Shown here piece after piece: positions 21,659 to 40,742 of a stretch of 64,000 nucleotides of DNA. The DNA is from Pseudochrobactrum asaccharolyticum (GTDB lineage: Bacteria; Pseudomonadota; Alphaproteobacteria; Rhizobiales; Rhizobiaceae), in assembly GCF_003314995.1 (NCBI RefSeq), contig NZ_QNRH01000002.1:310001-374000 (forward strand), written 5' to 3'. Both the position numbers and the translations under genes were made by a program. How positions within the stretch are numbered: position 1 is the stretch's first letter; each line of letters opens with the position of its first letter. Under the pieces are notes generated by a model. The model ran no database searches. It saw only the letters and a program-made list of their open reading frames with translations, and had not been told where the DNA came from.

Positions 21659-21735
21659 GCACCCGTAGCTCAGCTGGATAGAGCACCAGACTACGAATCT
21701 GGGGGTCAGAGGTTCGAATCCTTTCGGGTGCGCCA
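21659..21735 (+). tRNA. tRNA-Arg (anticodon ACG), first copy
   Basis: A 77-base cloverleaf with encoded CCA. The acceptor stem GCACCCG pairs with CGGGTGC, the anticodon stem-loop CCAGA-CTACGAA-TCTGG gives anticodon ACG, and the T-loop is TTCGAAT. It reads CGN arginine codons once the first anticodon base is deaminated to inosine. Confidence 0.97.
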
Positions 21736-21817: not shown

Positions 21818-21894
21818 GCACCCGTAGCTCAGCTGGATAGAGCACCAGACTACGAATCTGGGGGTCAGAGGTTCGAATCCTTTCGGGTGCGCCA
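21818..21894 (+). tRNA. tRNA-Arg (anticodon ACG), second copy
   Basis: Identical over all 77 bases to the copy at 21659-21735, separated from it by 82 unrelated bases. The two form a small tandem array, probably one transcript. Confidence 0.97.
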
Positions 21895-23739: not shown

Positions 23740-24459
23740 TCAATAATCTTTATCGCCGTCATCGGATGTAACATAACGCCAGCGCACCGAAGTCACCAGC
23801 GGCTCCAGACTTAAGCGGCCGATAATCTGCTCCAGCAACGGATCCTGATTATTATCAGCGCGAAACAGCGCATTCACCTCAACGCGGTTGCTATCCTCAA
23901 TATTGGTGCTTTCAAGATCCTGAATATGCAGAACCGTACCAAGATCGCGCAGCAACAGCGAGCGCACATGCGCCTCCGCATCGCCCATACAAACAATGCT
24001 CACTGCATAGCGGCTGTCAAATTCTGACCCGCTTGCCGGTTGCCGGTCAATCAGATGCACCAGCGGACGCAAAAACAGGTTCACACTGATAATAAACAAC
24101 GTGGCAATGGCCGCATGAAGATAGAAGCCAGCGCCGCACATCACGCCGACAGCCGCAGAGCACCATAGTGTTGCAGCCGTATTCAGCCCGCGGACGTTAA
24201 AACCTTCTTTGAAGATAATCCCTGCGCCCAGAAAACCAATACCGGAAACAATCTGCGCTGCCACACGGGTCGGACTGGTATCACCATCAACCAATGAGGC
24301 AAACAAAACAAAGGTCGCCGCACCCACCGCGACCAGCGTATTGGTGCGCAACCCCGCAAGACGTTGACGCCATTGCCGCTCAAACCCGATAATACCGCCT
24401 AGCACAAAAGCTGCTGCCAGTGCTGTAAATGTATGTAAGAGACTTTCAACTGAAACCAT
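23740..24459 (-). CDS. mgtC: MgtC/SapB-family membrane protein
   Basis: A 239-residue protein. The N-terminal membrane part has the family pattern GGIIGFERQWRQRLAGLRTNTLVAVGAA, GIGFLGAGIIFKEG and NTAATLWCSAAVGV; a soluble C-terminal domain of about 95 residues follows (YAVSIVCMGDAEAHVRSLLLRDL), as in virulence-type MgtC rather than short SapB proteins. In other bacteria MgtC supports growth at low magnesium and survival in host cells, by inhibiting ATP synthase in Salmonella. The ATG at 24459 was chosen for AGGG upstream; the longest frame starts with TTG. It is divergent from the mgtA cluster and leads a possible three-gene operon with a two-component system. Confidence 0.92.
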   Translation of the reverse strand: MVSVESLLHTFTALAAAFVLGGIIGFERQWRQRLAGLRTNTLVAVGAATFVLFASLVDGDTSPTRVAAQIVSGIGFLGAGIIFKEGFNVRGLNTAATLWCSAAVGVMCGAGFYLHAAIATLFIISVNLFLRPLVHLIDRQPASGSEFDSRYAVSIVCMGDAEAHVRSLLLRDLGTVLHIQDLESTNIEDSNRVEVNALFRADNNQDPLLEQIIGRLSLEPLVTSVRWRYVTSDDGDKDY

Positions 24460-24601
24460 AATCTGCCCTGCCATTTTCGTCTGTATTCCGATAGCAGCTT
24501 TATTTCGCAACGATATGAAGATTTTCTAATACAATAAAAATCGTGCAATGCTGGCTGTTCCTGTCTCTTTTTGCTGCGTAAAACAAGCTTAACCTCTGAG
24601 A

Positions 24602-24654: not shown

Positions 24655-24923
24655 CATAGTTGAGGCGACAGACCATCTGTTTTAAACACAGGTCAGGACA
24701 GTTCAACTGTTCAGTCACCGGCTTCAGCGCCTGCTCTGATGAAATTCAGACAGGGGCTCTGAAACCACATCTCACGTGCATTCTTCCTGAATATTCAGGA
24801 TGCACCCGCAAGGATCGCGTTCCTAAATGCCAAGCGACAGTAGTCAACAAACCAAGCCGCAGCAGCAACCGGACTGAGCCTTTGCAGGTTTCACCCGTGC
24901 CGTTGCGGCTAATGAGGTGAAAC
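24655..24923 (+). promoter_or_regulatory. Structured leader RNA, riboswitch-like, class unknown
   Basis: Reading the plus strand as RNA gives these helices: P1 AGTTGA (24658-24663) with TCAACT (24703-24708), enclosing P2 (GAC and CTGT at 24671-24680 with ACAG and GTC at 24688-24694); P3, a long interrupted hairpin (about 24719-24767: TTC, AGC, CCTG, CTGA with their complements); P4 GTGCA (24776-24780)/TGCAC (24801-24805) with an inner CCTGAA/TTCAGG; and P5 GTTTCACC (24888-24895) with GGTGAAAC (24916-24923), which covers the ribosome-binding site of the gene at 24924. P5 has an inner GCCG/CGGC. A competing helix AGCCGCA (24855-24861)/TGCGGCT (24904-24910) would break that inner stem. This is an aptamer plus on/off switch layout. 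I cannot match it to a known class; M-box similarity is not convincing. Confidence 0.55.
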
Positions 24924-25154
24924 ATGACCTATCCAATTCTCAACATGGCGCAAATTCTGTGCGCATCCCCGCTCAATGGCGATACACGTCGTTTTGTCCG
25001 TTCCTCACGCCTGCCAAAACTGGCTGACGGGCCGGATGTTGTTGCCGTCATCGCTGACGGCGGTAACCGGCCGGTTGCCCGCTGGGTGCGTAATCCGCAA
25101 AACCGCAAACTGGAATGTATCTGGTCTGCAGCAACAGGCGGAGCACAGTCATGA
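24924..25154 (+). CDS. Small protein of unknown function, 76 residues
   Basis: I do not recognise it. The protein starts MTYPILNMAQILCASPLNGD, continues with a basic stretch (RRFVRSSRLPK), has DVVAVIADGGNRPVARWV in the middle, and ends polar. It has one or two cysteines (14 and near 67) and no membrane helix. A good GAGGTG lies five bases before the ATG but is paired in hairpin P5 of the leader, so translation is probably switched. Its stop overlaps the start of the next small gene (ATGA at 25151-25154), which argues that both are real. It is the first gene of the run that ends with mgtA. Confidence 0.65.
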   Translation: MTYPILNMAQILCASPLNGDTRRFVRSSRLPKLADGPDVVAVIADGGNRPVARWVRNPQNRKLECIWSAATGGAQS

Positions 25155-25321
25155 GTGTTCTCTTTGATGTTCTCATGGTCTTCGGCTTCACGCTGCTGAT
25201 GCTTGCCGTCAGCTTTATCCGTGTGCAGGCCAAAGCAGGTTTTTATGAGCCATTACTCAAAACCCAGACTGCAGAAGAACTGCCCCTTGATAACGGAGAG
25301 AACTATGGACGACGACAGTAG
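25151..25321 (+). CDS. Small single-helix membrane protein, 56 residues
   Basis: A 56-residue protein with one membrane helix at about residues 3-24 (LFDVLMVFGFTLLMLAVSFI), then a short basic/aromatic segment (RVQAKAGFYEPLL) and an acidic tail (TAEELPLDNGE). Unknown family to me. It overlaps the preceding gene by four bases and ends only 283 bases before mgtA, so a role as a small partner of the MgtA transporter (as MgtS or MgtR are in enterobacteria) is a fair guess, based on position and size alone. A short leader ORF for mgtA starts inside its 3' end, in another frame. Confidence 0.6.
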   Translation: MSVLFDVLMVFGFTLLMLAVSFIRVQAKAGFYEPLLKTQTAEELPLDNGENYGRRQ

Positions 25322-25343
25322 TCGGTGGCTGTGTGCGGTCTGA
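25305..25343 (+). CDS. 12-residue candidate leader peptide of mgtA
   Basis: ATG followed by three GAC codons encodes MDDDSSRWLCAV, then tandem stops TGA TAG. The ribosome-binding site GGAG (25295-25298) is six bases from the ATG. The ORF overlaps the 3' end of the 56-residue gene in another frame and ends inside the left arm of the hairpin at 25325-25387. An acidic run right after the start codon is the feature that makes ribosomes unstable at low magnesium in the enterobacterial MgtL peptide. The comparison is functional inference; there is no sequence similarity. Confidence 0.5.
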   Translation: MDDDSSRWLCAV

Positions 25344-25543
25344 TAGCGGGAACCTCCCCTTCCTGCTTTCAGACCGCATGCAGCCACTCCCCCACAAAAC
25401 CAGACAAGTTAAAGTCCGGCACAGAGCTTTGCGTCTTCCGCAGCATAATTCCTTAAACTTGAATCAGTTTAAGGGAAAATTATGCTGCATATATAAAGTG
25501 TTAGAGCGACCTTTATGCGCCCAATCGGGCGCACGGCGCTCTA
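25325..25543 (+). promoter_or_regulatory. Three strong hairpins in the mgtA leader
   Basis: H1 (25325-25387): GTGGCTG/CAGCCAC, TGCGGTCTGA/TCAGACCGCA, AGC/GCT and GGAA/TTCC stack around a 7-base loop. H2 (25440-25488): GCAGCATAATT/AATTATGCTGC and CCTTAAAC/GTTTAAGG around an 8-base loop. H3 (25502-25543): TAGAGCG/CGCTCTA enclosing TGCGCCC/GGGCGCA. None has a T-tract, so control would act through Rho, translation or RNA stability rather than a simple terminator. H3's ends match the TAGAGCG intergenic repeat and may derive from it. Confidence 0.65.
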
Positions 25544-25604
25544 TGCGCGGAGCGGCTCTGTGCTGCCATTTTTCAGCGATGATCCGTCATCGCGGGAGTA
25601 TCTC

Positions 25605-28316
25605 ATGAACAAGCCGCTCAAAAACACCGCCTTTCAGGCGGATAAAGACGACCGGAAACTTTCATCCCGTGCGATGAAAGAAGCCCGCAACAGCCTTGAT
25701 ACAACACTCGCCAATCTGCGCAGCGATCAGCAAGGGCTGACCAATGCCGAAGCAGCGCTGCGCCTGCAGGAAAACGGTGCCAATGAAGTCGCTCACGATA
25801 AGCGTCCTCATGCCCTGATCCAGTTGCTGCAGGCCTTCAACAATCCTTTCATCATGGTGCTTATGGCACTGGCTGCAATCAGCTCTGTCACCGATATCTG
25901 GCTGCCGATGCGCGACGGCGAAGAAGTCGATTATACCGGCGTGACCATTATCGTGACGATGGTCGTGCTCAGCGGCTTGCTGCGTTTCTGGCAGGAATAC
26001 CGCTCAGGCAAAGCTGCTGAAGCCCTCAAGGCAATGGTGCGCACCACAGCCACAGTTTTGCGCCGCAGCAGCGGCGGCAACACACCGGAACGCCATGAAA
26101 TTCCGATGCGTGATCTGGTGGCCGGTGATATCGTGCTGCTATCTGCCGGTGACATGATCCCTGCGGATATCCGCCTGATTGAATCGCGCGATCTTTATGT
26201 CAGTCAGGCTGTTCTGACCGGTGAAGCACTGCCGATTGAAAAATACGATACGCTGGGTTCCGTTGCCGAGAAATCTGCCGCCGCTACCGCTACTGACGAA
26301 GCAGATATGCTTGATCTGCCGAATATCTGCTTCATGGGTACCAATGTGGTGTCCGGCACAGCGACAGCCGCGGTTGTTGCCACCGGCGCACGCACCTATT
26401 TCGGCTCGCTGGCCAAAGCCATTGTCGGCTCCCGTGCAGAAACCGCCTTTGACCGTGGTGTAAACTCCGTCAGCTGGCTGCTGATCCGTTTCATGCTGGT
26501 GATGGTGCCGATTGTGCTGCTGATTAACGGCTTTACCAAAGGTGACTGGGCAGAAGCCTTCCTGTTTGCGCTCGCCGTTGCCGTGGGTCTTACACCGGAA
26601 ATGCTGCCGATGATCGTGTCTTCTAACCTCGCCAAAGGTGCGGTTGCGATGTCACGCCGCAAAGTAGTGGTGAAACGCCTCAACGCCATTCAGAATTTCG
26701 GCGCGATGGATGTGCTCTGCACCGATAAAACCGGCACGTTGACACAGGATAAAATTATCCTCGAACACCATGTGAACAGCAAAGGCGAACGCGACGACCA
26801 TATTTTCCGCCTCGCATGGCTGAACAGCTATCATCAGAGCGGCATGAAAAACCTGATGGATCAGGCCGTTATCCGGTTCTCCAGCGGTCTGGGCGATGTG
26901 CTGCGCTCTGCCTCATTCTACCGCAAGATTGATGAGCTGCCGTTTGACTTCATCCGCCGCCGCCTCTCCGTGGTTGTGGAAGGTATTCACGGTGATCACC
27001 TGCTGATCTGTAAAGGTGCCGTGGAAGAAATGCTCGCCATTGCCACACAGGTCAAAGAAGGCACGCAAATTCTGCCGCTGGATGATAAACGCCGTGCGGA
27101 ACTGACAGCGATTGCCCGTGCCTATAATCAGGATGGTTTTCGTGTTCTGGTGATTGCTACCCGTGATATTCCGCAAGGCTCGACCAAACCGCAATATAGC
27201 GAAAATGACGAATGTGAACTGACCGTTGAAGGTTTCCTGACCTTCCTCGACCCGCCAAAAGAAACCGCTGCTCCTGCCCTTGCCGCTCTGCGTGACAATG
27301 GTGTGGCTGTGAAAGTTTTGACCGGCGATAATGAGATTGTCACCACCAAAATCTGCCGTGAAGTCGGGCTGGAACCTGGCACACCGGTGATGGGACGTGA
27401 TGTCGAGAAAATGGACGACGCCACCCTGCGTGTCATCGTTGAAGACACCACTGTTTTTGCCAAGCTGACACCATTGCAGAAATCCCGTGTTCTCAAGGCA
27501 CTTCAGGCCAATGGCCATACGGTCGGCTTCCTCGGCGACGGGATCAATGATGCGCCGGCGCTGCGCGATGCCGATGTGGGTATTTCCGTCGACAGCGGTG
27601 CAGATATCGCCAAAGAATCCGCCGATATCATTCTGCTGGAAAAGAGCCTGATGGTGCTGGAGGAAGGTGTTATCAAAGGTCGTGAAACCTTCGGTAATAT
27701 CATCAAATATCTCAATATGACGGCCAGCTCAAATTTCGGTAACGTCTTCTCCGTACTGGTTGCCTCTGCCTTCATTCCGTTCCTGCCAATGCTGGCAATC
27801 CACCTGCTGATCCAGAACCTGATGTATGACATCTCGCAGCTGGCTCTGCCTTGGGACAAGATGGACAAGGAATTCCTGAGCAAACCACGCAAATGGGATG
27901 CGAAGAATATCGGCCGCTTCATGCTCTGGATCGGACCGACCTCTTCGATCTTCGACATCACGACTTTCGCGCTGATGTGGTATGTTTTTGCTGCCAATTC
28001 GCCTGAAATGCAGTCACTGTTTCAATCCGGCTGGTTCATTGAAGGCCTGCTGTCCCAGACCCTTGTCGTGCATATGCTGCGCACCCAGAAAATCCCGTTC
28101 ATCCAGAGCACCGCTGCTTTGCCGGTGATGCTGATGACCACACTGGTGATGGCAATCGGTATTTATATTCCGTTCTCGCCACTGGGTAATGCTGTCGGTC
28201 TCGTGCCGCTCCCATGGGAATATTTCCCTTGGCTGGCCGGTACGCTCATCAGCTACTGCATCGTCGCACAGGGTATGAAAGCCATCTATATCCGCCGCTT
28301 CGGTCAGTGGTTCTAA
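25605..28316 (+). CDS. mgtA: Magnesium-importing P-type ATPase (MgtA/MgtB)
   Basis: A 903-residue P3B-type ATPase, full length for the family, that brings Mg2+ into the cytoplasm. An N-terminal cytoplasmic part, paired helices (FIMVLMALAAISSVTD; VTIIVTMVVLSGLLRFW), the TGEALP motif (205-210), the phosphorylated DKTGT (374-378), the hinge [19 protein letters not shown], and six C-terminal helices ending with YIRRFGQWF are all visible. The ATG at 25605 was chosen for GGGAG six bases upstream and the family-typical N-terminus; the longer frame runs into leader hairpin H3. A long structured 5' region with a short ORF precedes it, and mgtC is divergent. Confidence 0.96.
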   Translation: MNKPLKNTAFQADKDDRKLSSRAMKEARNSLDTTLANLRSDQQGLTNAEAALRLQENGANEVAHDKRPHALIQLLQAFNNPFIMVLMALAAISSVTDIWLPMRDGEEVDYTGVTIIVTMVVLSGLLRFWQEYRSGKAAEALKAMVRTTATVLRRSSGGNTPERHEIPMRDLVAGDIVLLSAGDMIPADIRLIESRDLYVSQAVLTGEALPIEKYDTLGSVAEKSAAATATDEADMLDLPNICFMGTNVVSGTATAAVVATGARTYFGSLAKAIVGSRAETAFDRGVNSVSWLLIRFMLVMVPIVLLINGFTKGDWAEAFLFALAVAVGLTPEMLPMIVSSNLAKGAVAMSRRKVVVKRLNAIQNFGAMDVLCTDKTGTLTQDKIILEHHVNSKGERDDHIFRLAWLNSYHQSGMKNLMDQAVIRFSSGLGDVLRSASFYRKIDELPFDFIRRRLSVVVEGIHGDHLLICKGAVEEMLAIATQVKEGTQILPLDDKRRAELTAIARAYNQDGFRVLVIATRDIPQGSTKPQYSENDECELTVEGFLTFLDPPKETAAPALAALRDNGVAVKVLTGDNEIVTTKICREVGLEPGTPVMGRDVEKMDDATLRVIVEDTTVFAKLTPLQKSRVLKALQANGHTVGFLGDGINDAPALRDADVGISVDSGADIAKESADIILLEKSLMVLEEGVIKGRETFGNIIKYLNMTASSNFGNVFSVLVASAFIPFLPMLAIHLLIQNLMYDISQLALPWDKMDKEFLSKPRKWDAKNIGRFMLWIGPTSSIFDITTFALMWYVFAANSPEMQSLFQSGWFIEGLLSQTLVVHMLRTQKIPFIQSTAALPVMLMTTLVMAIGIYIPFSPLGNAVGLVPLPWEYFPWLAGTLISYCIVAQGMKAIYIRRFGQWF

Positions 28317-38231: not shown

Positions 38232-40742
38232 ATGACCAAACATAGCAATCCCGAGCAGATACGCTCCGGCCTGCCCGTTGTTACGCTCGAAATTGACGGC
38301 ATGACCTGTGCATCCTGTGTCGGGCGTGTGGAAAAGGCATTGCTTGCCTTGCCCGGCGTCAACAGCGCCTCTGTCAATCTGGCAACCCAGCAGGCAACAG
38401 TGCGCTTTGATGACAAGCCCGATGCCAATCTGGCAGCAGAAGCGGTTAAAAAAGCCGGTTATACCGCCCATATTCCGCAACCGGCATCGCAGGTGGTGCT
38501 GGAAGTGGATGGCATGACCTGCGCATCCTGCGTCGGGCGTGTGGAAAAAGCTTTGCAGGCCTCAACCGGTGTTGCTGCGGCTTCCGTCAATCTGGTGACC
38601 AAACGCGCCAATATTACGCTCAGCGATCCGTCGGTCACCCCGCAAATGCTGGCTGATATCGTCACCAAGAGCGGTTATCCGGCACAGCCTGTGGCAAGCA
38701 CAACGCCTGCCAGCGGGGCAGAGCGCCGTGCAGAAAAAAATGACGCCGAGATTAAAATCCTCAAGCGCGATGTGCTGATTGCCGGTGCGCTGGCATTACC
38801 GGTTTTCCTCGCCGAGATGGGCTCGCATCTGATCCCCACACTGCACCATATTATTGACAGCACAATCGGTATGCAGAACAGCTGGCATCTCCAGTTTATC
38901 CTGACCACGCTTGTATTGTTCGGCCCTGGCTTGCGCTTTTTCCGTATCGGCATTCCCGCATTGCTGCGCGGCGGACCGGATATGAACTCACTTGTGGCTG
39001 TCGGTACATTGGCAGCATGGGGCTTCTCGGTTGTTGCAACTTTCATGCCTGCCGTCCTGCCGGCGCAAACCGTCAATGTCTATTATGAAGCCGCAGCAGT
39101 TATCGTTACGCTGATCCTGATCGGCCGCTGGATGGAAGCCCGTGCCAAAGGTCGTACATCCCACGCCATTGCTCATCTGCTCGGACTACAGGCTAAAACC
39201 GCCCGCGTGGTGCGTGATGGTGTTACGCAGGATATTCCGCTGGAGGATGTGCGTGCGGGGGATCTGGTACTCGTGCGTCCAGGCGAGAAAGTGCCGGTAG
39301 ACGGTGAGATCACTGAGGGTACATCTTATATTGATGAATCCATGATTACCGGCGAGCCGGTGCCAGCGACTAAAAATGTCGGTGATACGGTTGTCGGCGG
39401 TACGGTCAACAAAACCGGTGCTTTCACCTATCGCGCCACCAAAGTCGGCTCAGATATGGTGATTTCGCAGATCATCCGTATGGTTGAAGATGCACAGGCC
39501 GACAAGCTGCCGATCCAGAACCTGATCGACAAAGTGACAACATGGTTTGTGCCTGCGGTCATGCTGGCAGCTTTTGTCACCTTCCTGATCTGGTTTATCT
39601 TCGGCCCTGAACCGGCCTTCACCTTCGCGCTGGCCAATGCCATTGCCGTGCTGATTATCGCCTGTCCTTGTGCCATGGGTCTGGCCACGCCAACCTCAAT
39701 CATGGTTGGTACCGGTCGTGGTGCGGAAATGGGTGTCCTGTTCCGTCGCGGTGATGCGCTGCAAAGTCTGCGTGATGCCGATATTATCGCCTTCGACAAA
39801 ACCGGCACGCTGACGATCGGCAAGCCTGTTCTCTCGCAGTTCTTCAGCTTTGTCGGCAATCAAGATGATGAAATGCTGGCTTTGGCAGCAGCATTGGAAT
39901 CCCGCTCGGAGCATCCGATTGCCACAGCGATTGTACAGGCAGCAGAAGAGAAAGGCTTGCAACAGCCGGAAGTGAAGGAATTTGAAGCCGTACCGGGCTT
40001 TGGTGTCAGCGGTATGGTTGATGGTCAGGCTGTCCATGTCGGTGCAGAGCGCTTCATGAAAAAGCTCGGCATTGATGTTGCCACTGGTGCGAAAGCCGCA
40101 GCACTGATGACGGCCAAAGCACAATCCGTGCTCTATATGGCACGGGGCGGTGTGCTGGTCGCAGCCTTCTCCGTGGCTGACGAACTGAAACCGACAACAA
40201 AAGCCACCATTGATGCCCTGCATAAGCTTGGCCTGAAAGTGGCGATGATCACCGGTGACAGTAAAGTTGTGGCCAATGCCATTGCCAAAGAACTGGGCAT
40301 TGACGAAGTGTCCGCTGAAGTTCTGCCGGATGGTAAAGTGGAAGCACTGAAGCGCCTTGCAGGCTCTGGCCGCAAGATCATCTTTGTCGGTGACGGTATC
40401 AATGATGCTCCGGCACTGGCAGCAGCCGATGTGGGCGTGGCTGTCGGCACCGGTACGGATATCGCTATTGAAAGCGCCGATGTGGTGCTGATGAGCGGCG
40501 ATCTGACTGCTGTTGTGGATGCCATTGCTTTGTCCAAAGCGACAATCCGCAATATCCGTCAGAACCTGTTCTGGGCGTTCTCCTACAATACCGCGCTTAT
40601 TCCGGTGGCGGCAGGTCTGCTCTATCCGTTTTACGGCATCCTGCTCTCGCCGGTACTGGCTGCGGCAGCTATGGCACTGTCGAGCATCTTCGTGCTGACC
40701 AATGCCTTGCGCCTGCGCAGCTTCACCAGCACACGGACATAA
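38232..40742 (+). CDS. copA: Copper-exporting P1B-type ATPase
   Basis: An 836-residue Cu(I) exporter. Two HMA domains with MTCASC at residues 24-29 and 95-100 come first, then eight membrane helices including the transport motif CPC (478-480). The TGEPVP actuator motif, the phosphorylated DKTGT (522-526), the SEHPIA histidine motif and [10 protein letters not shown] complete the pump. It moves excess copper from cytoplasm to periplasm. GGGGAG precedes the ATG. It forms an operon with copZ under a CueR-type promoter and ends at a strong terminator. Confidence 0.97.

Follow-up and report, generated by a model that had tools for sequence, protein, structure and literature searches.

A 12-codon open reading frame (ORF) just upstream of the gene for a Mg2+-transporting P-type ATPase in Pseudochrobactrum asaccharolyticum is probably a translation-aborting upstream ORF of the MgtQ type, controlling this MgtB-type pump in cis, a reading to which we give a probability of roughly two in three. 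We infer the translation of this ORF (leader 2), its response to Mg2+, and the direction of control from a comparative analysis of the window, the 64,000-nucleotide stretch of DNA that contains it, and of related loci. From left to right, the neighborhood holds a divergent mgtC, leader 1, the small ORFs p76 and p56, leader 2, hairpin H1, a repeat, and the 903-aa pump, with the following features.

23740-24462, divergent: mgtC (Pfam MgtC)
24827-24877, + strand: leader 1, MPSDSSQQTKPQQQPD and a stop, a second, intergenic leader peptide (sequence and relatives)
24924-25154, + strand: p76, a small ORF with the motif RWVRNPQNRKLECIW, which resembles ORFs upstream of mgtB elsewhere
25151-25321, + strand: p56, a small hydrophobic ORF that overlaps p76 by ATGA and leader 2 by 17 nt
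25295-25298, + strand: GGAG ribosome-binding site of leader 2, 6 nt from the ATG and in the same place in loci L033 and L034 (sequence)
25305-25343, + strand: leader 2, MDDDSSRWLCAV plus TGA, the 12-codon, putatively MgtQ-type upstream ORF (sequence and relatives)
25317-25321, + strand: AGTAG core of leader 2 (codons 5 and 6; AGT at codon 5 in 56/69 and at codon 6 in 50/69 relatives)
25325-25387, + strand: hairpin H1, 28-nt arms (86% complementary) and a 7-nt loop, starting at +20 of leader 2
25400-25419, + strand: weak counterpart of hairpin H2, CCAGAC..GTCCGG, found by eye, the support for H2 coming from relatives
25417-25427, + strand: 5' strand of predicted helix P3, CGGCACAGAGC (folding)
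25442-25543, + strand: dispersed two-hairpin repeat of ~102 bp, inside the P3 loop and outside the conserved leader (own-genome search)
25555-25565, + strand: 3' strand of predicted helix P3, GCTCTGTGCTG, then CCATTTTT (folding, terminator scan)
25576-25598, + strand: predicted hairpin GCGATGA..TCATCGC with the mgtB ribosome-binding site GGGAG at 25594-25598 (folding)
25605-28316, + strand: MgtB-type Mg2+ P-type ATPase, 903 aa (best NCBIfam model, PRK15122)

Leader 2 reads ATG GAC GAC GAC AGT AGT CGG TGG CTG TGT GCG GTC TGA (25305-25343). An in-frame TAG (25344-25346) directly follows the TGA, and both of these tandem stops fall within the left arm of the inverted repeat 25325-25352/25360-25387. 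A preliminary description of this DNA had given the same ORF, GGAG site, and tandem stops inside a hairpin arm, and the sequence bears these out; the hairpin of about 24 bp that it placed after the ORF is H1, which is real and has the longer arms listed above. Among the 38 ORFs on either strand of the window that start with ATG, have 8 to 60 codons, and follow a Shine-Dalgarno (SD)-like motif, leader 2 alone has three acidic residues at codons 2 to 4. A search of its own genome for ATG-N3-9-GACAGTAGTCG recovered only leader 2 (leader 1, with GTCAAC, lies outside this pattern), and the sole own-genome match of 25295-25430 was itself.

We named the pump MgtB-type because PRK15122, which we take to be MgtB, is its best NCBIfam model and because it is 75.6% identical to Serratia MgtB versus 53.1% to E. 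coli plasmid-collection entries, some of them annotated mgtA. PRK15122 is also the best model for the annotated Serratia MgtB and for the Phyllobacterium pump, and the earlier label mgtA does not hold. About 11 kb downstream of this gene lies a second P-type ATPase, with matching stretches at ~39072-40652 in an 848-aa open frame. Two tRNA genes (21659-21732 and 21818-21891), 85 nt apart and with the same Rfam score (67.9), are perhaps a duplication.

Leader 2 is conserved well beyond its own lineage. In the syntenic loci L033 and L034 (96% and 91% DNA identity), the sequence between the leader-2 ATG and 25352 is unchanged at all positions, Asp2-4 included, and the p56 codons directly before the ATG are variable; the same-genus copy (G002/L063) is uninformative, its contig ending there. 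A family-wide pump search gave hits in 38/346 genomes at an E value of ≤1e-150, nine of them with a pump of ~73% identity or more, and all nine carry an M-D-D leader ORF at the matching place: MDDDSSR in three (the window lineage) and MDDYPSR, MDDDPSR, and MDDPDS in two each. One of these (L176) has the ORF in its sequence with no SD-like motif and was missed by our scripts. Leader 2 also occurs in four Phyllobacterium, Brucella rhizosphaerae, Ochrobactrum teleogrylli, and a Rhizobiales isolate; the annotation of one Phyllobacterium plasmid lists this leader as a hypothetical protein. The exact pattern ATGGACGAYKAYYCNAGTAGG, which does not cover the window's own variant, had five hits in 394 family genomes, all five just before an MgtB-type pump gene.

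Class-wide, 5/385 genomes, our own included, had a pump at an E value of ≤1e-290. A scan of genome contigs contributed the best 80 of 575 loci, 61 of which were Pseudomonas. With these best 80 of 575 as its scan rows, the set of 88 nonidentical upstream regions of pumps with ≥70% identity contained leader 2 in 71 (the pattern picked 73, of which L158, L162, and L166 are not leader 2, and L114 was added by eye). Among the same best 80 of 575 listed loci, 57/60 informative Pseudomonas loci have it. The 17 regions without leader 2 are the uninformative L063 and L117, three Pseudomonas, one Rhizobium, seven Enterobacterales, two Mycolicibacterium, and two Sphingomonas. It is also missing from three of six further plasmid loci (L204, L206, and L210), the Shinella, Paracoccus, and Cronobacter ones.

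For codon counts, L158, L162, L166, and L149 were dropped, leaving 69 leaders. An acidic residue (Asp or Glu) stands at codon 2 in 48, of which 34 are Pseudomonas; 20 leaders have Asn there and 1 has Gly. Just over half of the Pseudomonas leaders (29/57) are of the type M-[DE]-[DE]-x-[SP]-[SR]-R (for example, MDDASSR and MDEASRR; that of P. aeruginosa PA7 is MDEPPSR), and 22/57 are MNxSSSSPLRxS-like, with 12 codons and, like the window's leader 2, a stop that falls in the hairpin. Farther away, among the six plasmid loci, that of Burkholderia multivorans encodes MNADDSSR, again with GACGACAGTAGTCG and followed by a long hairpin, the mgtC-mgtB spacer of Serratia marcescens has MDDDPGRKMIPAWLTG (MDDDPGR) after AAGGAGG, and that of Enterobacter soli encodes MDVPRRLK. 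The first 21 nt of the window's leader 2 agree at 14 positions with the Serratia spacer ORF, at 16 with B. rhizosphaerae, and at 19 with a Pseudomonas leader; the Serratia ORF and the B. rhizosphaerae leader share 19/21. This conservation, distant relatives included, rules out leader 2 as a chance ORF, and the combination of acidic codons after the start with a hairpin before the pump gene, first noted in the window alone, recurs in relatives.

The preliminary description had held one case against a leader peptide, namely relatives that keep the hairpins and have lost the ORF. No such case occurs in the nine family genomes with a close pump, but three Pseudomonas (L115, L120, and L140) and seven Enterobacterales loci lack the leader-2 ORF, and by eye the leader-2-less Pseudomonas and Enterobacterales loci that we inspected keep the downstream leader sequence.

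These losses bear on the reading that RNA alone is conserved, with H1 and the AGTAG stretch serving as a structure or binding site (for stability, a protein, or a small RNA) and the ORF incidental. Besides relatives without the ORF, it is favored by the 15/69 leaders (L097 among them) that have no SD-like motif from our list, by the very strong covariation of H1, and by the AGT codons, which across the 69 loci are steadier than the acidic ones. Against it, an SD-like motif precedes the ATG in 54/69, and codons 2 to 7 vary mostly at the third position, with Asp and Glu replacing each other and every one of the four Pro codons used at codon 5. The additional nucleotide states at codon positions 1, 2, and 3 of codons 2 to 7 number 2, 0, and 5 in nine Hyphomicrobiales loci and 1, 1, and 6 in 25 Pseudomonas loci, the latter having been picked by peptide pattern, so that their conservation, especially at codons 1 to 3, is partly built in. 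In codons 8 to 12, which form H1, the states number 5, 5, and 7 (Hyphomicrobiales) and 4, 5, and 7 (Pseudomonas). This distribution fits selection on the peptide at codons 1 to 7 and on RNA pairing at later codons, and we regard an RNA element with an incidental ORF as very improbable, the least probable of the readings considered here.

H1 itself is strongly supported by covariation in relatives, though not in the three near-identical sequences of the window lineage. Its common register, with arms meeting at +19/+20 and +57 to +59, gives the best stem in 50/69 loci; the window lineage has a longer stem (+19 to +83), and H1 is missing at this register from several Asn-type leaders. For the test we used 38 of the 69 loci, 37 of them distinct, which were chosen by peptide and not by pairing and from which the window lineage was left out. 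In these, 96.2% of 444 cells were paired versus 80.6 ± 1.1% in shuffles (0/500 as high), and covariation was 0.544 versus 0.222 (0/500), counts that relatedness among the loci inflates. Two-sided changes occurred in 9 of 12 pairs versus 6.6 in shuffles (2/500 reached 9), and helices slid from this register were 25.5 to 49.1% paired.

Downstream of H1, support varies by element. Fifty-three start regions were prepared, four more having no recognized start and twelve loci having been left out beforehand, and 38 of the 53 were aligned. The consensus fold of these 38 leaders contains H2 as its sole helix (7 pairs, two with two-sided changes) and does not contain P3. P3 and the start-site hairpin come from folds of subgroups, the all-leader consensus fold being poor for Pseudomonas. 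In the window, the stretch 25285-25610, which includes the dispersed repeat, folds with a z score of -12.6 against shuffles (0/100). The two further hairpins that the preliminary description saw before the pump ATG are present (25442-25543), but they are a copy of the genome-wide repeat of ~102 bp. Searching the own genome with this repeat gave 41 matches, namely the copy itself, its inverted half, and other places numbering at least 39, since 40 of 81 first-look candidates were scored. All six other genomes searched within the genus have the repeat, and a few other genera have it more weakly. As a dispersed repeat, the two hairpins are ruled out as parts of a switch.

In the mechanism that we propose, ribosomes would load at the GGAG of leader 2, perhaps also from termination on p56, and begin M-D-D-D. 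At low Mg2+, the acidic nascent chain would destabilize the ribosome, as we suppose by analogy with MgtQ and MgtL. The folding of H1, H2, and P3 would then depend on the fate of the ribosome, which may fall off, pause at the Ser-Ser-Arg codons, or continue as far as the stop in H1. Since predicted P3 would compete with the hairpin that covers the mgtB ribosome-binding site, MgtB synthesis should increase when translation of the leader is aborted. Asn occupies codon 2 in 20/69 leaders, and acid-driven drop-off is therefore not universal; one Pseudomonas clade has lost the acidic codons.

Folding predictions bear on this competition in part. The mgtB start site is mostly paired (mean openness, 0.34 in 60 leaders). 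Blocking the 5' strand of P3 lowered the predicted openness in 32, raised it in 10, and left it unchanged in 17 of 59 leaders. In a scan of 57 leaders, with the window lineage left out, a block at -100 to -85 (approximately the 5' strand of H2) raised openness in 28 and lowered it in 14, and a block at -80 to -65 (approximately the 5' strand of P3) lowered it in 33 and raised it in 9; the effects are small (mean, ~0.06), and a control block at -140 to -125 also lowered openness in 26/57. Such a pattern would be expected if P3 were in competition with both H2 and the start-site hairpin. An early ribosome lowered the predicted openness in 29 and raised it in 14 of 60 leaders. In the window lineage, blocking P3 barely shifts it (0.20 to 0.23), and with an early ribosome it falls from 0.2 to 0.0, contrary to what the model predicts.

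Leader 2 might instead act on transcription in the manner of MgtL, its translation exposing or hiding a Rho site or a terminator made of P3 plus TTTTT and so altering read-through into mgtB. A C-rich stretch follows H1 (from 25386), the 3' strand of P3 runs into CCATTTTT at a terminator-like site (25545-25563) that is kept in L033 and L034, and MgtL itself acts through Rho (PMC11282234). Yet Rfam gave no gathering-score match for the window and 14 loci from relatives, no TTTTT followed P3 by eye in the Phyllobacterium and Pseudomonas rows that we viewed, and the pairing predicted at the mgtB ribosome-binding site is common (the mean openness given above), all of which leads us to consider control of transcription unlikely. 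This terminator-like stem and the TGCCATTTTT after it (25545-25572) stand just before the mgtB ribosome-binding site. A trp-type attenuator does not fit, there being no T-run after H1 and the nearest + strand terminator sites lying at 25545-25566. A known riboswitch or leader family was ruled out by the Rfam searches: the window gave only unrelated weak matches up to an E value of 5, and the 14 relatives' loci no match to an Mg2+ leader family.

The arrangement of the upstream ORFs suggests a further alternative, in which leader 2 is a mere translational bridge: ribosomes from p56 would reinitiate on it, open H1, and couple the upstream ORFs to mgtB without any sensing. The leader-2 start lies inside the end of p56, whose stop, the TAG of the AGTAG core, falls 14 nt within leader 2, and the overlaps between p56 and leader 2 (17 nt) and between p76 and p56 (ATGA) would suit such coupling. 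However, leader 2 is kept where p56 is reduced (L096) or absent (L097, both by eye), the upstream ORF ends 47 to 66 nt before leader 2 in L092, L093, L094, and L170 and 171 nt before it in L174, and a bridge needs no conserved acidic codons. We consider it improbable that leader 2 only bridges. As a query, p56 matched in 2/297 family genomes and 3/9 relatives, and against NCBIfam and Pfam it had nothing at the curated cutoff; p76 has no family in Pfam or NCBIfam. Small ORFs with a W-x-V-N-P-x-x-G-R-L-E-x-x-W-like motif stand before mgtB in alpha- and gammaproteobacteria: p76 itself and upstream ORFs in L092 to L097, L204, L206, L214, L160, and L167.

The best reading in our analysis, an ORF of the MgtQ kind, can be set beside the known system. 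In the mgtQ report, mgtQ is an 8-aa upstream ORF between mgtC and mgtB of Salmonella whose translation controls that of mgtB; Asp2 and Glu5 matter, the acidic codons lower mgtQ translation and raise that of mgtB, and L31 modulates the effect (PMC8092293). Orthologues are shown there for five Enterobacterales species, and the Discussion turns to Brucella, with an mgtQ-like ORF before mgtB in Brucella melitensis, where mgtC lies elsewhere (PMC8092293). The position of mgtC was evidently not decisive for those authors, because they counted this ORF, and with it the kind was already known (PMC8092293).

Like MgtQ, leader 2 is a short, SD-preceded ORF just before an MgtB-type pump, with Asp at codon 2, an overlapping hairpin, and predicted competition for the mgtB start. 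As for stem-loops that hide the mgtB site, H1 is firm and H2 partly so in relatives, and the competition between P3 and the start site is predicted, with the contrary prediction in the window lineage. Leader 2 differs in its 12 codons, Asp2-4, and Ser-Ser-Arg motif without Pro4/Glu5; its H1 starts after codon 6 or 7 and has 28-nt arms, the 102-bp repeat sits in the P3 loop, and p76 and p56 precede it, not mgtC, which is divergent (23740-24462).

The preliminary description had proposed an independently evolved version of MgtL. MgtL, the mgtA leader peptide (EPDP), shares acidic codons near the start of a leader peptide of an Mg2+ P-type ATPase, with ribosome drop-off as its proposed sensor, and leads to Rho-dependent termination before mgtA (PMC11282234). 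Leader 2, in contrast, has another motif and lies not in the 5' leader of an mgtA but after two small ORFs, p76 and p56, and before an mgtB-type gene; it has no gathering-score Rfam match, and its 21-nt start resembles the Serratia, B. rhizosphaerae, and Pseudomonas leaders. We thus read leader 2 as of the MgtQ kind and not as an independent MgtL. Tandem short regulatory ORFs are also known from mgtCBRU, and leader 1 upstream of leader 2 recalls MgtM and MgtP, although their signals, ATP and charged tRNA-Pro (PMC8092293), are not indicated here. Among open-licence titles and the beginnings of abstracts, we found no mgtA or mgtB leader peptide for Pseudomonas, Rhizobium, Brucella, or alphaproteobacteria; a P. 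aeruginosa mgtA study uses a Salmonella leader as a sensor (PMC11218974). The range, the common motif, and the H1 register are apparently new, as is a second leader (MPSDSS..) that also occurs before a corA.

That second leader, leader 1, shares the stretch CGACAGTAGTC with leader 2 and has a weak SD-like AAGGA 12 nt upstream of its ATG. Its region is possibly a second translational switch, judging from sequence features. As to pairing, codons 10 to 14 (24855-24867) can pair with 24898-24910, and GTTTCACC/GGTGAAAC (24888-24895/24916-24923) covers the ribosome-binding site of p76. The leader-1 pattern ATGCCNAGCGACAGTAGTCG occurs in 4/394 family genomes: before the same type of operon (G217 and G273), ahead of a p76-like ORF close to the end of a contig (L214), and, as MPSDSSRQHTPLRPSGRA, before two small ORFs and a gene for a CorA-family Mg2+ transporter (L215; ORF at 3-893 on the minus strand, cut by the end of the locus; Pfam CorA E value, 5.7e-36). 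A looser search of 94 upstream regions found leader 1 in seven (four Brucella-like, two Sphingomonas, and one Shinella) and in no Pseudomonas.

Tentatively, and with somewhat less than even confidence, we suggest that a single ancient family of leader peptides responding to Mg2+, present in alpha-, beta-, and gammaproteobacteria, includes both leader 1 and leader 2. Its members would share a start followed by acidic residues and [S/P]-S-R encoded by AGT/AGG/CGG, with a covarying hairpin coming next at a constant spacing in the case of leader 2; one operon would hold two sensors in series, and leader 1 would also serve before the CorA gene.

The comparison gives the MgtQ kind a sequence signature, a covarying hairpin, a common register, and a wider range, and because this range includes 57/60 informative Pseudomonas loci, the role of the acidic codons versus that of the Ser-Ser-Arg codons becomes testable. 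Clades in which the acidic codons have been lost, the ORF shortened, or the repeat taken into P3 offer natural experiments. If the suggested family is real, the Ser-Ser-Arg motif would be a second, so far unrecognized part of the sensor. With two sensors in one operon and leader 1 also before a CorA gene, Mg2+ sensing by ribosomes on leader peptides would then be a general proteobacterial device and not an enterobacterial speciality.
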